Assembly (NCBI GenBank): GCA_009801085.1
Contig: VNWV01000005.1
Span: 992,001 to 1,056,000, forward strand
Source: Lasiodiplodia sp. COLG20
Lineage: Eukaryota > Ascomycota > Dothideomycetes > Botryosphaeriales > Botryosphaeriaceae
Length of the DNA stretch: 64,000 nt
Reading direction: 5' to 3'
A program made the position numbers and the translations under genes. The notes beneath the pieces were generated by a model, which was not told where the DNA came from, did not search any database, and was given only the letters and a program-made list of their open reading frames with translations. Within the stretch, counting starts at the first letter, position 1. Every line of letters starts with the position of its first letter. Positions 5,801-62,078 of this stretch are shown in pieces.

Positions 5801-7050
5801 CAGGGTACGGCGGCGCCATCAACAATTACGCTTAACCCGCTCCCGCGCGCCCTCGAGGGAGACGGCGCCGGCAGGGGTGCGCCCGCCGTTGCGAAAGAAG
5901 GTCGACGCTGGTGGCCCGAGCCAGGCTGGGGAACCCTCGCGCGCCGCTTTGGGGGTGTCGGATGTTCCGCGTTTGTATCATCCGCACATTCGTCAGCAAT
6001 TGGCCGCTCAGTCGCTGCATGACATCGCTCTAGCTCGGGGGGTCCAGCGGCTCTCTGCTCGCGGCGCGTCGATTGGCGGGCGTGCAGCGTCTAGATCCCG
6101 ATGCGAGCAGATCTCGTCGCCTGATCGGGAGCGCCACGGTGTTTCAGCTGGGCTGGCCAGGCCGAAAGGGAGCAGTGACGGAGATGAGGCGGCTGCGGGA
6201 GCTGGGCGATGACGAGCAGCGCGCGCGCGTCACGGGCAGCCGCGCCTGGCGGCGGCGGCGGAGGAGGAGGAGGTTCTGGCAGGCGGAATGTCACTGTAAC
6301 GTCGCGGCGGAGATCATTGCCGACTTATCGATTGCATGCCGTCCGCCTTGCGGTGTCGATCGCGGGAGGAGTGCGAGCTAGGCGCATCTTCTTTCAGCCC
6401 TGGCGCCCATGGCAGATGCCGGCGCCGCGGCCGTTTCGCATAGAGGCGCTCATCAGGGCCAAATTGCTGGAGAAGCGCGCGCGGTCCTTCATTTTCTGGA
6501 CAACGCTCGCGACGAAATTGGGCGGTGGGACTTGGGGCTCCTGGCGAAATGACGCTTCGGGCTGAGTCTGAGGGCTGATAGGCTTGGGGCGGCGCGCCTG
6601 AGCGCGTCGAATCGGGCGCGATGCGACGAGGATGGACTGCGCTAGCATCGTGCCCGCGCGCTGTGCATTTGCCGCTGCGCGCCACACGCTCTGCGCCTGC
6701 CGTTGAAGCCGAGCGACACCAGACACCGCCCAGGCCTACGTGATCGCCGCCCTTCACGCGAGCGCTGGATCGACCGCGCAGCCATCCAGCCCGTTAGCCT
6801 TACGGCATGCGGCAGGCGAATCTCCCACCCGGCCGGTAAGGTTCCTGGTCCACCGGCCCAGCCATGCCTCTAAATAAGGTAGCCCTCCCCAAGCCAGCTC
6901 CGCGCGCCTCGACGGCCTCAAAAAGCTGCCATCATCGCAAAAGAGCTTTCCTTTCTTTTTCTTTTCTCCTTCTTCTTCCTCTCTTCTCTTCTCAGATGTC
7001 GGTCGTTGCCGCCCGCGCCCAAAGAAATTAAAAGACCTCTTTCCCCCCCA
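2842..7050. other. long intergenic region, no supported gene
   Basis: From about 4.4 to 6.8 kb the sequence is GC-rich with many overlapping ORFs on both strands, none with recognisable domains or coding-like continuity. A pyrimidine tract ending in CTTCTCAG at 6950-6995 looks like the 3' end of a 5'-UTR intron of the gene that starts at 7051. Confidence 0.45.
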
Positions 7051-21848: not shown

Positions 21849-21862
21849 TAGTAATTGCGCAT

Positions 21863-22014
21863 GCGCCGATCGGGAATCTGTTGGATTATTAGAATATGCA
21901 TTGTGTAGGAGTCGAACTTTGAAACTTACCGAACCCGAATCTAATGCTATCGGAAGTCGTAAACTGAATTACGAGGTTGGAAGGCATTAATGCTAACCAT
22001 TACACCATCGGCGC
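21863..22014 (-). tRNA. tRNA-Gly(UCC) with a 37/38 intron and a T-loop insert
   Basis: Read on the minus strand, the acceptor arms GCGCCGA (22014-22008) and TCGGCGC (21869-21863) pair over all seven bases. The D-arm with A-box TGGTGTAATGG follows. The anticodon stem AATGC/GCATT encloses loop CTTCCAA with anticodon TCC, interrupted after position 37 by a 29-nt intron (21977-21949). The T stem TCGGG/CCCGA pairs perfectly, but its loop TTCG|ATT is split by a 52-nt insert (21929-21878) that begins GTAAGT and ends CAACAG. Removing both gives a 71-nt cloverleaf. A chance fit of every stem is very unlikely. No CCA is encoded, as usual in eukaryotes. Strong T runs follow. Confidence 0.85.
21878..21929 (-). 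other. T-loop insert (putative second intron) of tRNA-Gly
   Basis: This 52-nt insert lies between tRNA positions 57 and 58. It begins GTAAGT, carries AGTTCGACTCC (a full match to the Pol III B-box RGTTCRANNCC) after six intervening bases, has a branch-like TCTAAT, and ends CAACAG. The mature B-box of the tRNA would be split by it, so the internal copy probably replaces it for transcription. Confidence 0.75.
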
Positions 22015-34631: not shown

Positions 34632-37600
34632 TTAGGCTTCTTCAGCAAATGCGTCAGAGAACCTCGAGAGCGAATTGAACCGCTCGACTTCTTCGGCGCT
34701 GGTAACCTTCGTGAGAATCCCATGGCTTTTCGCAAGGCCTATGTCTTCGATCCATGACCTTGGCACCATCATCATGCCTCTTTTGGCATCTTCCACGACA
34801 TGGACTTGTTCATGCGCCGTGTCGCCCGGCATCCTCATTTCTTGAGGCTGAGAGCCCAAAGCTTCGCTTCTCCGCTCCCGCTGTTCTAGAATGTCCACGT
34901 CGATCGTGTGCGGTGCAATGAACCGGTACACGTGAACCGGTCTCTGCTGTCCGTATCGCCTCGCCCGTCCGATCGACTGGATCATGGCCGCGTGGTATTT
35001 TTGACTCGTACTGGTGAGGAGCGGCGAGATGAATATTACGTGATTCGCGTTGACGAGGTTCCTGTGCTGTGTCAGTCTTAAATCTTAAGGCATCGCTCTT
35101 AAAACTTACATTCCAGAGGCCGATTCGTCTCCCAAGTTAAGAATCAGGACCTTGCCAAAATCACCATTTAGCTTCGTCTTGCCGCTGTCCGTGTACCGCG
35201 AGTTCTTCACGAAAGCTTCAATCTTGTCAGTTGCGCTTTCAGACACTCGATCAATGGCGTATAGAGAAATCTCTCGGGTCGTAAGTGCTTCATCGACCTT
35301 TGACATCATGCTGTACGATTGCACGAAGATGATAGCCTGTTCCTCGTCGGGGATCGACTTCAGCAACTTGATCACGCTGTCCAGTTTCGAACCGAAGCTC
35401 TCTACACGAGGAGCAGTGTCCTCGCACCTCCACAAAGTCTCTGCGTCGAGAACGCCGTGCTCTCGAATCTCCATCTCGCACCCGACGACGCCACACCTCT
35501 CTTCGGCCATACCATCGTCCAGGCAATCGTGACAAACAACATGACCACACCCGACGATGATTGAGGTGAGCGAGGCAGAAATCGGGTGAGGAGCGTCGCC
35601 GCATTCACACTTTAAGTCTTTGTCCTCTAAGAGTGCTGATTGAACCTTTAACACGGAGCGGGCATATCTGACCGACCTGCGCATGTTTGTGAACTTGCGG
35701 GCTTCTCCACCAACCTTGGTTCGCACGAGCTTCTGCAGGTTGGCTGCAGCATTCGCAGATTGTGTGGTGGCAACGCCGGCGCATTCTTCTTCAGCTCTCA
35801 GTATCATCTTTTTGATTTCGGCGTGAGACTTTGGGTCTGTAGATGTGCTCAAGTCCCCTCGGTATCTTTCTGCCCACCCCTTCCATTCTGAGTTCGGATC
35901 GCCGCTACGTTTGGCGAGAGTGGCTGCTTCGAGGATGTAGTTTCGCAGCCTGTTCGCCTGCTCGTTCAATTCTGTTTCGCGCTGCCTGATGAGGTTTGTG
36001 CATGCCGAGACATCGCTCGTTTCGGTCGTGCGCACACTGCAGCAGTTTACCAGTGCTTCCTCGGCCGTCTCGAAACCGCGTATACTCTGCCGCAGCTTTT
36101 TCGCTCGGTCACCGAGCTCCGCGCCCGAGAGGCCAGTCATGGTCATGTTTCGTCCTTTGAAGTACGAGGACAGCTCTTCGTAATCTGCGCGATGGTCGAG
36201 CGCCAACGGGACAGACCGCAGACTCTCGTAGCACTTGACATCACCGATGTCGGCGGAGTTCTGACGGGCAAAGGAATCCAAAAAATCCTGCGCGTGTTGG
36301 TGCCGGGTTTCGTGCCACGTCGGCGAGCGCCTCTCGCTGAACGCCTGAAAAAGTTCGAAGCTCGTCTTCTCTTTCCGCATCTGCTTCGAATTCTCTCGGG
36401 TTATTACGCCCGGCGTGTCCAAGTCCATCCCTAGGTTGACTCCCAAGAAAGCGGCGAAACGCTTTACATCTGCAAAGTCCCCGAGCGGCGGGGTTCCGGA
36501 AAGGATCCACCGTTTCTCCGCGGAGAGCGTGACCAGAGCAGTGTAATCTCTATCGCGGAGGTAGTGAAACTCATCTATGATTATGCGGTTAAAGCTGAAT
36601 TGATGGAAGACCGGGAATTCCCACCGCTCCCAGTCATCCTTTGGCGCGTACACATTCGCAGCCGCCGGCGCTTTGGGATGGCTATTTTTGGTTGTTTGCT
36701 TGCTATTGCCCTCTAGCTCCTCGAAGCTCTTGTAGTTCGCCCCCTTCGTACGCTTCGAGGGCATGATTCCGGTGAAGTCTTTAAGGGATTTCGTTTTTTC
36801 AAGTTCGTCTTTGAGGTACCGCTTGAACGAGGAGACACCAAGGTTTCTCAGCTGGTCATTCACGTCCGGGATCCGTTTGAGGCAGTATTTAAACCATGCG
36901 TCGTACTGACGCCCCTCCGACATGGGTGTCTCCGGAACGGCCGAGACGTTAGCGAGCTGCTGGGCGTAAAAATCTTTGCCAAGCAGAGAGAACGAGGCGA
37001 TAATGATCTTCGCCCGTTTAAAGTCCTGAATCCGCAAATTCTTGAGCTCGTTAGCGTTCCTGATCTTCAGGATTTCCCCAGATGCGTAGTCTTTGCTCGG
37101 CAGACATTTCAAGGCCTCTTGCATCCACTGATTGGGCAAGTTGTTCGGGACAAGAATCAGCGTTGCTTTCAAAGGTATCAATCCCTCGTCGCCGCTGGGA
37201 ACGTCTTGGGATTCGCAAAACCCCGCGTGGACGAGCGCCAGCGACGTGATGGTCTTGCCATACGACACCTGATCGGCGACGACGCCGCCCTTGACCGTCA
37301 TGTCGATCCCCGCCTTGGCTTCAATTCTCCAGCGCATTGGCTCAACGACTTCTTCCGCGATTTCTTGCACAGCAAAATGCTTGCCTTTTTCTTGCTGCCT
37401 CATCCAGGAAAGGGACCTCCGCTGAGCGGGCCGAAGGTTGAGGCGGAAGTTCCTCGGTTGGTCATTTTCTTGATCGAGGATGTTGCTCAACAGTCGAAAA
37501 GGCCGAAGGTCCGGTGCTGCCGGAGGCACGTACTCGGTGGTCAGCTTCCACGCAAGGACTGGGTTCCCTCGACGAGGATGGAGATGAGCGAGCGCCCTGT

Positions 37601-40600
37601 GAGCCAAAGCAACAACATTCAGCCCGATCTGCAAGTGGCAGATGTTGGACCCGTTCACCGCCGTTGTCATGTCGAGAATATGCGGACGCGCTTTCATGCC
37701 GAGCTCGTACCGAGCGGCTTCTTCGGGGTCCTCCTGAGCGACAAAGGTACTCTTGGTCTTCCCTCGCCCGGAGTCTGACAGGGCCCACCGGACTGACGGT
37801 AGCACGGGACCACACGTATCGCAAGGTCCAACGGTATCACCGATGTCGAGCCTTCGCCACTCTTTCAGGCTGGGAAGGTGCGCGTTGGTCGCGAGAACCC
37901 ACGAGAACCTCTTAATGAACGCTGATCCGTTGCGCTCATCGAAACGGCGCTCCCTTAACTCGTTACTGTCATCAACTTGGAACTTCAAACTCAGAACCGC
38001 GAGACTTTGCGAGCAATCTCGAGACACTTTCGTACCCCAATCACGACTACTATTCGGGCCTTTGACGACGAGAATGTCGCGTGATGCGTACAGCTTTGAC
38101 GCGTCCTCTTGTACCCAGAGCCCAGCAAGACTGCCCTCGGTCTCGAATGATTTCCGGTTCCAGGGCCGGAACGAGGGCTTCAGACGGGTGACCACTTCTC
38201 TTTGCTCGTTGCTCTCCAGACGCTCGTGTGCGCTGGAGAACACAAAGCAATCCTGATCCACAGGACCAATCGGCGAAGGATCTAGGAAAAGGTACAAGGG
38301 GGCGGCTTCAGGGACCTCGTCAGAACAGGACAACCTGCGATACAAACTCGAGCAAGCCGTGCCACAATCCGGCAGGTGCTTGTAAGTCCCAGAAATATCC
38401 TGGGGTAGAAGCTTTGCATCGTCTGCAGAAATTGACACGTTGAGCTGCTGTGGCACCGTCTCTTTCTGGTACTCGACAAGCCCATACATAGCCCTCCAGG
38501 ATCGATTGAAGTCCTCACTTCCCTGGACAGAGACTTGAAAACGGCGGCTCGAAGGGACGAACCATTCCCAATGATCCGCCCAACAATCGTCGTGGCCATT
38601 CGTGTCTAGACCAGTCGGTAGCTTGGCACGAGCGACGGGCGACCTTAGGAGGTCTCTGAGCGGATCGTCTCCAGCCAAATGGGCGGGAGCCTTGACGAAC
38701 AAGAGCCATACTGCTTCGCGGTCAATTTGGAGCTTCAAGATGGCCCGGGGCGACTCGTAACGGACGGCCCATTTCAAGGTTCGCTGGAAATTTTGAAACT
38801 CGAATTGCTCTTCGAGAGCCTCGGATACCACGCTGAAATACTTATCACAGAGGGAATTGTCCACTTGATTCCCATGTTTCAGGTTAGGGAGGTGGGGTTT
38901 CGCTGTAAACCGTAGCTTCGAGGGAAAATGGTGTTTCCAGCGCAGCTCAAACTCGTGAGCGGTGATTGTGCGGTTGAACAGTCCGGCCTTAAAATCATGT
39001 AATGGTTTACTTTTACACTTACGGCATACGGTATGCTCACACTCCTTGCACACGAGTACTTCTTGATCCGTGCTCCCAAATCGACCCTCGCAACGGCAGA
39101 GTCGGATGCTATTCGATGCGTCCTCGCAGAGCCCACCGACGGAGAATTCCGAGGTCTTGAGGTCTTGATACTCTACTGGTCGTAGATCTCCATTTCCTCG
39201 CATGGAGGAATCGATTTGGGAAGATGTAGCCGGGTCGGAAGTAGCCGGCGGACTGGCTTGCTTGAGCATTGGGGATGCCACGATAAGGGCTGCTATCTGT
39301 GCAATGCCGACGACGGTCGAACTCATAGCGTTGCCCGCGAGGTCCTGCAGCTCACGCATAGTCTCGATGGTAAAGGAGATCTTGTCCAAGGGAAGCCCTT
39401 GGAGAGCCAGCGTTTCGTAGGGCGTCAGAGGACCACCGCGATCAGTTAAAAAGAATATACCAGAGGGAGTGATGCAGGAGCATATGCCGAACGGCATCTC
39501 CTGAGCGAACCTGTCCACATTCTGGCTCAACTCCATGATCGAGGTTTTGAACGCGGGATCATATCCGGGCGCGCCGCTACCGTTGTCCTTTGCGGCGCGG
39601 AGAAAACGAATCTCGATCGAGTCCCACACCCTTTCGACCTGCTTCTGAAACCACATCTTGTGTGCATTCTCAAAAGTAACGCATGTGCCCCCATCGATCC
39701 ACTGCGTAATTGGTCGTTGGTTGCCGAGGCCATCCGATCGCCGCACCTTTTGGTGTCGAATGCGGCAGGCATCCCAATTGACCGTCCTGTCTTTTGCGTC
39801 TTGTCTGTACTGGGTAGTGAGCTGTGAGTTGAATTGGTGCACCCGGTGGTCGTCAGCAGGCAGGAGGAAATCGGACGCCGGGGCGCTCGCGCGACGTTTA
39901 AAATCTTGCATGAGCGCTGTCCACTGGCTCACAGCCGTGCGCGCACTCCCAGGCCCAGGGAACTGCTCTTTGTGGATGCACACCATGTATCCACGCGTAC
40001 GGGTGTGCGGCAGATAGTAGTCCTTCGTATCCACGCGCACGAAATCCGCCGCGTAACCAACCTTCTCCGCACGCTTGACGCACTTCGGCCACGGTGCTCC
40101 GTAGACGTTTTCCAAGACGATAATCTTGGGCTTCCACTTCTCGGCGTAGCTCAAGATCGCCTCGAGAGTATCCCGAGACTCTCCCTTTTCGTTCAATGTC
40201 TTTCCCTTGTTGTTCAGCGCGGAAAAGTCCACGCAAGAGAAGCCGGCTACGAGGATGTCGATGTCTCCCGGAATCGCCACTTTTGCGCCGTACACGTTTG
40301 TCCTGGGACCTATTAGCACATGCTCATGCAGATGTAGTCTCTAATACTTACGCCCCTGCCTCGAATGCGTCCTCTTTCGCAAGCTCCCGGATGTCCCTGA
40401 ATATGATTGGCGGGTGAAAATTCCGTTCAATGTATGCCTGCTTTTTTGGTACAATTTCCGCGCTAAAGACGTGCCGGAGGCCTAACACGTCGCCGTTTTG
40501 CTGCAGGGCCTCGGACACGAGCTGAAGGGCCAGGACCGGGCTTTCTGTCCCGGAACACATGGTAGCTATGCGAAGTTCGTGACCGTTGAGTGCCTTAAGC

Positions 40601-44314: not shown

Positions 44315-46675
44315 ATGGACTCCAGCAACACGACCAGTCAAGGAGGCGCCGGCGGTGGTGGCGGCTCCAATTCGAGCGACTTCGTGAGTGATGCCCTCCC
44401 ACAGACGCAGACGCGCACGCGCGCGCGCGAGCGCGTGCCCTGCGGTCTCCCCCCCGCGCGATCCGCCCTGCTAACCCGCTGCAACAGGTTCGCAAGCTGT
44501 ACAAGTGCGTTCCCTCCCGGACTGGATTTCGTCCTCTTGAGTTCGTCCATTGACCATCGCTGCAGGATGTTGGAAAACCCCTCCGACGAGAGTGTCGTGC
44601 GATGGGGAAACGAGGGTGACAGTTTCGTCGTTTTGGAGGTAATGGCCCGCCGCGACCACACGCCCCCTTGGCGCCGGTACTGACGACTCTGGGCGCAGAA
44701 CGAAAAGTTTACCAAGCACATTCTGCCCAAACATTTCAAGCACAGCAACTTCGCCAGTTTCGTCAGACAGCTTAACAAGTATGATTTTCACAAGGTCCGG
44801 CACAACAACGAGGAGAACGGACAGTCGCCCTATGGCGCAGGAGTGAGTACACAAAGTCGACGGCCGTGACGCAAGACGATGCTAAGCGCAGCGAAACCAG
44901 GCCTGGGAGTTCAAGCACCCGGATTTCAAGATGAACAATAAAGATGCCCTGGATAACATTCGAAGGAAAGCGCCTGCGCCGAGGAAGCCCGCCACCAACG
45001 CCGAGGACATGGTCATTCCGACGCAGCAGATGGACATGTTCAACACGCAGCTGATGGCGACGCAACAGCAGCTGCAGCAGCTGCAGGAGCGTTACAACGA
45101 GTTGAGCATCCACCACTCGATGCTCCTCCAGGAATTGATGGGGATGCAGAAGACGATTGTCAACCACGAGCACATCATGCAGAGCGTCATGAGCTTCTTG
45201 CATTCGGTCGACGCTCAACGGAGGAGGGACAGCAGGCTGGTCAACCCGTTCCCCGGGGACGGTTCCGGGGCGCAGAACGGAAACATGGACCCCTCGAATC
45301 AGCAGATGCCTTCCATGGAAGATGACGGTCCCGCCTCGCCGCTGCAGCACGCTTCGAAACTGCTCAGCGAAACGAACGCCGACGTGATGCTCAACCCGCG
45401 CAACCTGGAGCACATGAACGAGCTGGCCATGCGTATGAACGGGACCCTCACCACACCACCTCCGGACCTGCTCCGCAACGGCAACCGCCCGGCCAGCCGC
45501 AACGCCGCGCCCCACTCGGCGAGCTCTTCCACTTCCATGCGGCTGGGCGATATCGATTCCCTCGTGTACCCTGTCGGACAGAACAACGGCATCGATCCCA
45601 TGTACAGCGAACACATCAACAACATTCCTTATCCGATGCCCACCAAACCCGTCGAAAACAGCAGCGGCGGCGGAGGCGGCGGCAACAGCGGCAACAACGA
45701 CCACAGATTCCGTACCGCGGAGCAACGCAAGAAGAGCGCTCAAGTCGATCCGGGTTGGATCCGGCAGCCTCAGATCCTGCTGGTCGAAGATGATCAAACG
45801 TGCCGACGCATCGGCAGCAAATTCCTCTACGCTTTCAATTGCGCCATCGACAGCGCGGTAAGTATTTGTTCGAGGCCGGTCGGAATGTTCCCATGCTGAT
45901 TCTCGGCCAGTTGGACGGTTTGGAGGCAGTCAACAAGATGAACCAAGGTTCGAAGTACGATTTGGTTCTCATGGATATCATCATGCCCAATCTGGACGGA
46001 GTGTCCGCTTGTCACTTGATCCGGCAATTCGATTCGACGCCGATCATTGCCATGACGTCCAACATTCGTAGCGACGACATTTCGATGTACTTTCAGCATG
46101 GTGAGTGCGCCCGCGAACGTCACGAAGTCCTCGGCTAACGCTTGATAGGTATGAACGACGTGTTGCCAAAGCCTTTCACGAAAGAGGGTTTGCTGCAAAT
46201 GCTCGAGAAGCATCTCGCGCACTTGAAGAAGCCGGGCCACGGCATGGACGCCATGGTCCCCCCGGCGGTGCAAGCGCCCCAACCGCTGCCGCAGAGCTCC
46301 AACAGGCCATCTCTCAAGGACGAGGACTCGCCCGCCAAGTCGCCCACGACCGGCAGCAATTGGAACTCCCCGAGCCAGATTCCAGGCGTCTCGCCCGTGG
46401 GAAGCTCCGTTGCGGATGAGTATATGAACACCGTCCCTGGCCACCCCGGGGCCTACGGAGTCCCGCCCGGCGCTGCACCTCTGCAGGCCGGCATGCAGTA
46501 TAACACGTCACCTCAATTGGCCATGGGAGCGCGGCAAGCGAGCGCTCAGCACCGAAGACAGATATCTGAAATATCCGGAGGAGACGACATGAACGCACCG
46601 AATAAGCGGCAACAGCTCTACGCCAACGCACAGCTGCAACCCCAAGCCATGAATCCAATGCAGAGGCCACGATAA
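44315..46675 (+). CDS. SKN7: Skn7 response-regulator transcription factor
   Basis: Seven exons: 44315-44383, 44488-44504 (17 nt), 44566-44638, 44699-44842, 44901-45857, 45911-46100 and 46149-46675, 658 residues. An HSF-type DNA-binding domain covers about residues 22-115 ([40 protein letters not shown]). A Gln-rich coiled coil follows ([20 protein letters not shown]). The receiver domain starts at [12 protein letters not shown] and has the phospho-acceptor D442 in [10 protein letters not shown], then AMTSN and [11 protein letters not shown]. Skn7 receives phosphate from the Sln1/Ypd1-type phosphorelay and controls oxidative, osmotic and cell-wall stress genes in the nucleus. The C-terminal tail is disordered and Gln/Pro-rich. 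Acceptor 44900 was chosen because it gives [13 protein letters not shown]. Confidence 0.95.
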
Positions 46676-61930: not shown

Positions 61931-62073
61931 GGGTCTGTGGTTTAGTGGTATAATACTCCCTTAGCATCACGTGATCCATGTAATATGGGAGTGGTCCCGG
62001 GTTCGGTGAGTCCTCATGTTCGAATCTTTTCAATATCATCAATCTAACAAAACATCAGATTCCCGGCGGATCC
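61931..62073 (+). tRNA. tRNA-Ala(AGC) with a 37/38 intron and a T-loop insert
   Basis: The acceptor arms GGGTCTG (61931-61937) and CGGATCC (62067-62073) pair over seven bases including G3:U70, the alanine identity pair. The A-box is TGGTTTAGTGG. The anticodon stem CTCCC/GGGAG encloses TTAGCA...T with anticodon AGC, split after position 37 by a 19-nt intron (61967-61985). The T stem CCGGG/CCCGG is perfect and its loop TTCG|ATT is split between positions 57 and 58 by a 53-nt insert (62006-62058, GTGAGT...CATCAG). The mature form is 71 nt. A T5 run lies 38 nt downstream. Confidence 0.85.
62006..62058 (+). other. T-loop insert (putative second intron) of tRNA-Ala
   Basis: The 53-nt insert has GTGAGT, six bases, GTTCGAATC (B-box core), sixteen bases, TCTAAC (branch-like), seven bases and CAG. 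The layout is the same as in the tRNA-Gly insert at 21929-21878, with no overall sequence identity outside these blocks. Confidence 0.75.
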
Positions 62074-62078
62074 AACAG

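Follow-up and report, generated by a model that had tools for sequence, protein, structure and literature searches.

How can a tRNA gene be transcribed and matured when its T-loop, and with it the internal promoter element on which transcription depends, is split by what looks like an mRNA-type intron? Textbooks draw a clear divide, in which a protein endonuclease handles the introns of tRNAs and the spliceosome those of mRNAs. Two tRNA genes in a stretch of 64,000 nt of the Lasiodiplodia sp. COLG20 genome (C45:992001-1056000, here called the window) seem to fall on both sides of it. Our preferred reading, to which we give a probability of roughly 0.82, is that the inserts are U2-type spliceosomal introns in working Pol III tRNA genes, and that they would supply a replacement B-box where the insertion destroys the original one. 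The pattern searches covered the whole genome (43.5 Mb, 88 contigs), and the tRNA gene counts below refer to this one genome at the level of its DNA.

Among the protein-coding content of the window, an eIF2B-epsilon frame has its best named matches in Botryosphaeria dothidea, at 92% identity with 77% of the query covered, and in Neofusicoccum parvum, at 90% with 53% covered, and a TBC-domain frame has a named match in Diplodia seriata (85% identity over 69%). An open frame at 35109-40319 (minus strand) combines a C-5 DNA methylase domain with an SNF2 domain, in an arrangement like that of fungal DNMT5. Neither Rfam (gathering threshold) nor ARAGORN (default settings) reports any tRNA in the window, probably because both tRNA genes are split.

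Interrupted tRNA genes in the window and the genome

The tRNA-Ala(AGC) gene (61931-62074, plus strand) and the tRNA-Gly(UCC) gene (22014-21862, minus strand) were delimited by reading and by ARAGORN after splicing. In the Ala gene, which has a G3:U70 pair noted by reading, exon 1 (61931..62005, through position 57) includes a canonical 37/38 anticodon-loop intron of 19 nt (61967..61985; ARAGORN i(36,19), ends by reading), a GT-AG intron of 53 nt lies in the T-loop between positions 57 and 58 (62006..62058), and exon 2 (62059..62074) supplies positions 58-73. The Gly gene is built in the same way, with exon 1 at 21930..22014 (through position 57), a 29-nt canonical anticodon-loop intron within it (21949..21977; ARAGORN i(38,29), ends by reading), a T-loop GT-AG intron of 52 nt between positions 57 and 58 (21878..21929) and exon 2 at 21862..21877 (positions 58-73). 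An earlier note on this DNA had claimed that the two inserts share ordered blocks at nearly fixed spacing, and re-reading both loci recovered these exactly: GTGAGT-N6-GTTCGAATC-N16-TCTAAC-N7-CAG in Ala (62006-62058) and GTAAGT-N6-GTTCGACTC-N15-TCTAAT-N7-CAG in Gly (21929-21878, minus strand). The branch sites are CTAAC at 62044..62048 (branch A 62047) and CTAAT at 21888..21892 (branch A 21889), each with the branch A 11 nt from the intron end. The note had also held that removal of GT...AG restores the T-loop and that the insertion splits the B-box; spliced, both genes indeed have five-pair T-arms and a B-box of their own that scores 10/10, against 5-6/10 at either unspliced junction. At the sequence level the proposed replacement is present too, as a B-box-like block within each insert, TGTTCGAATCT in Ala (62017..62027, 8/10) and AGTTCGACTCC in Gly (21908..21918, minus strand, 9/10).

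Close in sequence to the Gly-UCC gene is the tRNA family GAGCCGATGGTGTAATGG... (L093, L108, L114, L126, L128), with a 46-nt canonical intron. ARAGORN calls its anticodon TCT in four genes and TAT in one, which suggests anticodon shifts inside the family.

The pattern GTRAGT-N6-GTTCGANTC, proposed beforehand as a genome-wide check, has five exact matches and none for the reversed control. Four are tRNA T-loops (Ala, Gly and two Pro-AGG) and the fifth is an intron of a protein-coding gene whose reading resembles a protein kinase. A T-loop search free of the B-box (GTTCG/GT..GT..AG/ATYC and two variants, introns of 36-66 nt, whole genome) gave 8, 3 and 1 matches, against 3, 4 and 7 for the reversed controls (12 vs 14). 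Counts so close to the controls prove nothing by themselves, and it is the reading of context that decides: six of the 12 matches are tRNA genes and six are non-tRNA places. The six genes with an intron at 57/58 are Ala-AGC, Gly-UCC, three Pro-AGG and Arg-CCT. Similar introns interrupt seven tRNA genes elsewhere (numbering by reading in all 13): Ala-UGC at 9/10, two Arg-UCU at 11/12 and 13/14, initiator Met at 24/25 and three Phe-GAA at 30/31. Thus the further examples on which the earlier proposal had been made to depend do exist, both at the T-loop and at other positions.

A splice-out scan, in which 1983 GT..AG candidates with a branch motif from 360 kb (the window and the loci collected up to then, overlaps counted) were passed to ARAGORN, recovered the T-loop cases and all seven non-T-loop genes. 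Its 14 distinct 5' sites comprise 11 real ones (13 genes, two pairs being merged) and three spurious ones (L125, L016, L031), and for Phe the scan gives further, incorrect 3' ends as well. The raw number from a decoy scan with five end-pairs (10,965 candidates) is not low, at 0, 3, 5, 3 and 5 distinct sites; each of these is an overlap with an intact tRNA gene or the shifted edges of a Phe or Arg-UCU intron, and none is a new gene. The initiator-Met, Phe and 11/12 Arg genes were first met as misread ARAGORN or partial Rfam matches, and the Ala-UGC and 13/14 Arg-UCU genes through an intact B-box, so that GT-AG was no condition for meeting these five lineages.

Without splicing, ARAGORN makes 81 distinct predictions in the non-mitochondrial loci, five of which are misread ectopic-intron genes and one (L080) a gene fragment; another eight ectopic-intron genes are passed over altogether, which leaves all 13 missed or misread. 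The 13 genes, nine lineages at most, stand among ~89 tRNA genes examined, a ratio that is not a genome rate, the sample having been partly drawn by T-loop intron searches; nor is 13 a genome total, as the Rfam tRNA search scored 63 of 1009 candidates. Eleven of the 13 also have a canonical 37/38 intron. In the L080 fragment (6030-6180, C45 at ~1,062,100), a long and nearly perfect inverted repeat stands before the 3' part of a tRNA-Ala(AGC) gene, and this may be a gene with an inserted palindrome or one with an unusual canonical intron.

Other routes yielded less. The pattern GGTTCRANYCC alone was dropped, with 257 matches against 297 for its control. Combined with a downstream TTTT it gave 207 rows, many repeating one site, against 31 for the control, and reading covered the places listed first, other than C18:151580, C23:1406725, C23:1606664 and C23:2508865. 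A scan of viral contigs gave three matches, two of them identical in sequence, with a tRNA context in none.

The B-box-like block of the T-loop introns

All six T-loop introns contain, at offset 10-11, a B-box-like block (degenerate in one), which is absent from the other seven. Five of the six have a GTTCGA core, the exception being Arg-CCT with the degenerate AGTTTAATTCC. The T-loop introns score 9/10 in Gly, Pro a and Pro b, 8/10 in Ala and Pro c, and 7 or 8 in Arg-CCT, where 8 applies to a rule allowing A at position 57; the seven other introns score 7, 6, 6, 7, 5, 7 and 6. With the Arg score taken as 8 (8, 9, 9, 9, 8, 8), the T-loop set is higher at a one-sided Mann-Whitney P=0.0014, the Pro and Phe paralogues being counted as independent. 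Random 53-nt segments of the window reach at least 8 in 6.2% of cases and at least 9 in 0.52%. Shuffling whole introns gave P-values of 0.005 for Ala, <0.001 for Gly, <0.001, 0.001 and 0.060 for Pro a-c and 0.190 for Arg, and shuffling the intron middle, a harsher null in which the block's own letters are kept, gave 0.064, 0.003, 0.026, 0.015, 0.23 and 0.059 in the same order. No single intron thus carries the case for a replacement B-box, which rests on the link of the block to the T-loop position and on the comparison of Pro a with Pro c. Outside the GT-AG introns (exons and canonical intron) the three pairs of Pro copies are identical, 88/88, while the introns themselves share 51/55, 35/57 and 33/57, and the flanks about half; most of what the introns of Pro a and Pro c still have in common is their 5' site, GTTCGA core, branch region and CAG.

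The main challenge comes from a reading in which the introns are spliceosomal and the block, far from being a working promoter, came about as a by-product when they arose, for instance by duplication of the T-loop. The almost fixed offset of 10-11 nt would fit such an origin, as would the modest P-values under the strict shuffle and the fact that introns outside the T-loop manage without a block. It does not account well for the survival of the GTTCGA core in Pro a and Pro c despite much divergence of the surrounding intron. Moreover, for five of the six T-loop genes, the unspliced sequence without the block would be left with 5-6/10 at whichever junction is better; for comparison, the Pro B-box reaches 8 after splicing. 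We therefore regard a mere by-product as unlikely, though it deserves more weight than the other alternatives discussed below, and retain the replacement B-box as our preferred reading.

The Arg-CCT gene (L047), which combines its T-loop intron and degenerate block with a 71-nt canonical intron, is possibly a copy in decay or a user of another promoter element. A B-box in every ectopic intron was also considered and rejected, there being none in the Phe, Arg-UCU and Ala-UGC introns and a score of 7/10 (P=0.28) in initiator Met. The class of introns that the earlier note had envisaged, uniting promoter and splice signals, is thus supported for the T-loop: the splice signals are found in 13/13, and the B-box at the T-loop but not at the other positions.

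Similar blocks occur outside tRNA genes. Three of 13 intron-like strings in the window score at least 8, namely the two tRNA introns and a string at 45858 (1/11 of the non-tRNA strings). The latter (45858-45910, plus strand) reads GTAAGT...CTGAT...CAG, lies towards the end of an open frame and has a GTTCGA block ~10 nt inside, and could be chance or a coding intron sharing the same block. The kinase-like coding intron also bears a like block, having been found by a search that demanded it.

Introns that split the A-box, of which there are three, restore it unevenly. Compared with 21 intact A-boxes, scoring from 9.4 up, the first has a near-intact A-box by way of its AG end (10.4), which is expected of any such intron at that place (P=1.0), the second has a weak internal match (5.2, P=0.011-0.017) and the third has none (-0.5). 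On these scores we rejected the idea that A-box-splitting introns always restore the A-box. In the Arg-UCU gene L077, with its intron at 11/12, no recognisable A-box is left, and a TATATATGG block lies ~40-48 nt upstream of the gene.

Splice signals and the removal of the introns

All 13 introns are 50-60 nt long, with GT-AG ends (which the search itself demanded of the six at the T-loop) and a CTAAC, CTAAT or CTGAC whose branch A is 10-12 nt from the intron end, the branch motif having been a condition of the splice-out scan and not of the T-loop patterns. The 5' hexamers are GTAAGT (seven), GTTAGT (three), GTGAGT, GTATGT and GTAAGC (one each), and the leading R of RCTRAY is present in 8/13 by reading. 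They thus have the GT-AG ends and extended, GTRAGT-like 5' site of U2-type introns, and in 13/13 an RCTRAY-type branch 6-36 nt before the acceptor, a distance criterion taken from PMC5832005. Their positions, 9/10, 11/12, 13/14, 24/25, 30/31 and 57/58, are not the canonical 37/38. Four coding introns of 53-58 nt could be delimited in the genome for comparison: three of eIF2B epsilon (GTGAGT..CAG, with CTAAG in place of the consensus branch; GTACGT..CTGAT..TAG, branch 17 nt; GTAAGT..CTGAC..CAG, branch 10 nt) and one of the kinase-like gene (GTAAGT..CTGAC..CAG, branch 11 nt). These shared signals make the tRNA introns resemble coding introns, with signals that are if anything more uniform.

Splicing restores a tRNA recognised by ARAGORN in 13/13 (two near-identical Pro copies are merged in the output), and every gene has TTTT within 60 nt downstream. 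When RNAfold is used by itself, the minimum-energy fold of several spliced tRNAs, among them Ala-UGC and one Phe, differs from the cloverleaf, and reading shows a single acceptor mismatch in Ala-UGC.

If the introns were instead ectopic ones of the bulge-helix-bulge kind that the tRNA-splicing endonuclease removes, which has been proposed for cases in red algae, their GT-AG look would be coincidental. Ectopic introns in the D-arm and T-arm are known in Cyanidioschyzon (PMC9602550), and the Phe introns form a 4/4 central helix in one arrangement; a test for the bulge-helix-bulge at the junctions found no consistent helix, with three positive controls likewise weak. An endonuclease that reads structure would have no need of the GT-AG ends, branch motif and spacing common to all 13. 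In the five lineages that were met without a demand for GT-AG, the tRNA itself fixes the junctions within 1-5 registers, and the chance of GT..AG falling in an allowed register in all five is ~4e-11 by rough arithmetic with ends taken as random. (A figure of 1.4e-19 for nine lineages was set aside, as GT-AG was a search condition for four.) We consider such a coincidence very improbable.

The spliceosome remains the agent that we favour. The earlier note had left the choice between it and some unknown route; the signals turn out to be those of ordinary U2-type fungal introns, which points to the former by inference and makes the latter unneeded. A plausible order of events would begin with transcription of the whole gene by Pol III, intron included. 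As a T-loop intron at 57/58 splits the internal B-box, TFIIIC would bind instead to the B-box ~12 nt inside the intron. The spliceosome would then excise the intron from the pre-tRNA by its 5' site (mostly GTRAGT), its CTRAY branch and its CAG or TAG end, and so rebuild the T-arm, and the canonical 37/38 intron of 11/13 genes would be cut by the tRNA endonuclease. The sequence evidence therefore supports the earlier interpretation, in which TFIIIC binding and spliceosomal excision are steps that we infer.

Conservation, gene copies and comparison with known systems

As in Pro, the Phe copies are far better conserved outside their introns, where they share 103-105 of 105-106 positions, than within them (32-40 of 58-60). 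Judged by the 3' end there are six Phe genes, with the intron in 3/3 that were read, and the contiguous Phe junction AGCGCCAGACTGAAG occurs nowhere in the genome as an exact pattern, which a diverged version would escape. Initiator Met has two genes by T-arm match. The intron is present in the one that was read, and in the second AGCGCCGGGCTCATA is found at the corresponding spacing, consistent with an intron that has an AG end; the intron-free initiator-Met 17-mer is found nowhere in the genome, again as an exact pattern that a diverged gene would escape. The junction pattern for Phe and initiator Met had 14 matches overall, against 9 for the control. The 15-mer AGCGCCGGGCTCATA also occurs at C12:3869617-3869631 and C67:88603-88617 without the T-arm pattern, and these places may be initiator genes whose T-arm is altered or interrupted.

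Other tRNAs have copies without an ectopic intron: Ala-AGC (L059, L064), Arg-CCT (L066, L067) and, by the ARAGORN anticodon call, Arg-UCU (L108, L114, L126, L128). Three of the five Pro-AGG genes have the T-loop intron, and the remaining two, which the T-loop pattern does not match, probably lack it. Such copies in Ala-AGC and Arg-CCT, and probably in Arg-UCU and Pro-AGG, together with the degenerate block of Arg-CCT, are what might be expected of decayed, unexpressed tRNA pseudogenes with introner-like or other short DNA inserted, an explanation that we hold for scarcely credible in view of the near complete restored stems, the identity or near-identity of paralogues outside their drifting introns and, for initiator Met and Phe, the failure to find an intron-free junction by exact pattern, which a diverged version would escape.

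Given the intron-free copies of Ala-AGC, Arg-CCT and Arg-UCU, it is Phe and initiator Met that carry the argument for an obligate role. We lean towards the view, suggested by the sequences, that the spliceosome is indispensable for core tRNAs, perhaps family-wide: every initiator tRNA-Met and tRNA-Phe gene would carry an mRNA-type intron, translation would depend on spliceosomal processing of Pol III transcripts, and the T-loop introns would be portable promoter cassettes carrying the B-box of the gene they interrupt.

Introns of the mRNA type occur in the nuclear rDNA of ascomycetes, and are alike in sitting in a structural RNA gene; those hosts are not transcribed by Pol III and no internal promoter is at stake. 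The U6 intron of S. pombe reportedly holds a B-box (Frendewey et al. 1990). By sequence, the T-loop introns are likewise mRNA-type introns with a B-box-like block. In S. pombe the U6 snRNA gene, whose small RNA is made by Pol III, has an intron of the mRNA type (PMC10484740), and in this it and other fungal U6 genes resemble the genes described here. The differences are that the host here is a tRNA, that the T-loop intron falls inside the B-box of its host gene, and that a second intron of the tRNA-endonuclease type is often in the transcript. The one U6 match in our genome (L048; 47 of 2400 candidates scored) covers model positions 1-105 uninterrupted. Fungal U3 snoRNA introns, found in most of the Pezizomycotina examined in PMC5832005, are likewise GT-AG introns in a structured RNA, with RCTRAY at a mean of 15 nt from the acceptor, and differ in their host; that paper stated in 2017 that U3 and U6 were the only small structured RNAs known so far as often interrupted by introns. 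In Cyanidioschyzon merolae (PMC9602550) tRNAs have introns outside 37/38, several per tRNA, with the D- and T-introns supposedly removed before the anticodon intron; the T-arm intron of tRNA-Ile(UAU) lies at 53/54 rather than 57/58, and the passages on these introns mention neither GT-AG signals nor a replacement B-box. From the canonical eukaryotic 37/38 introns, which 11/13 genes also have, the ectopic introns differ in position and in signals. Searches of open-licence papers turned up no description of tRNA genes with spliceosomal introns.

Split genes of this kind show why tRNA finders may miss them, and they offer a testable case of how an intron invades an internal promoter and survives by bringing a replacement. 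Genes that apparently need both splicing systems would break the textbook divide and link Pol III transcription to the spliceosome.
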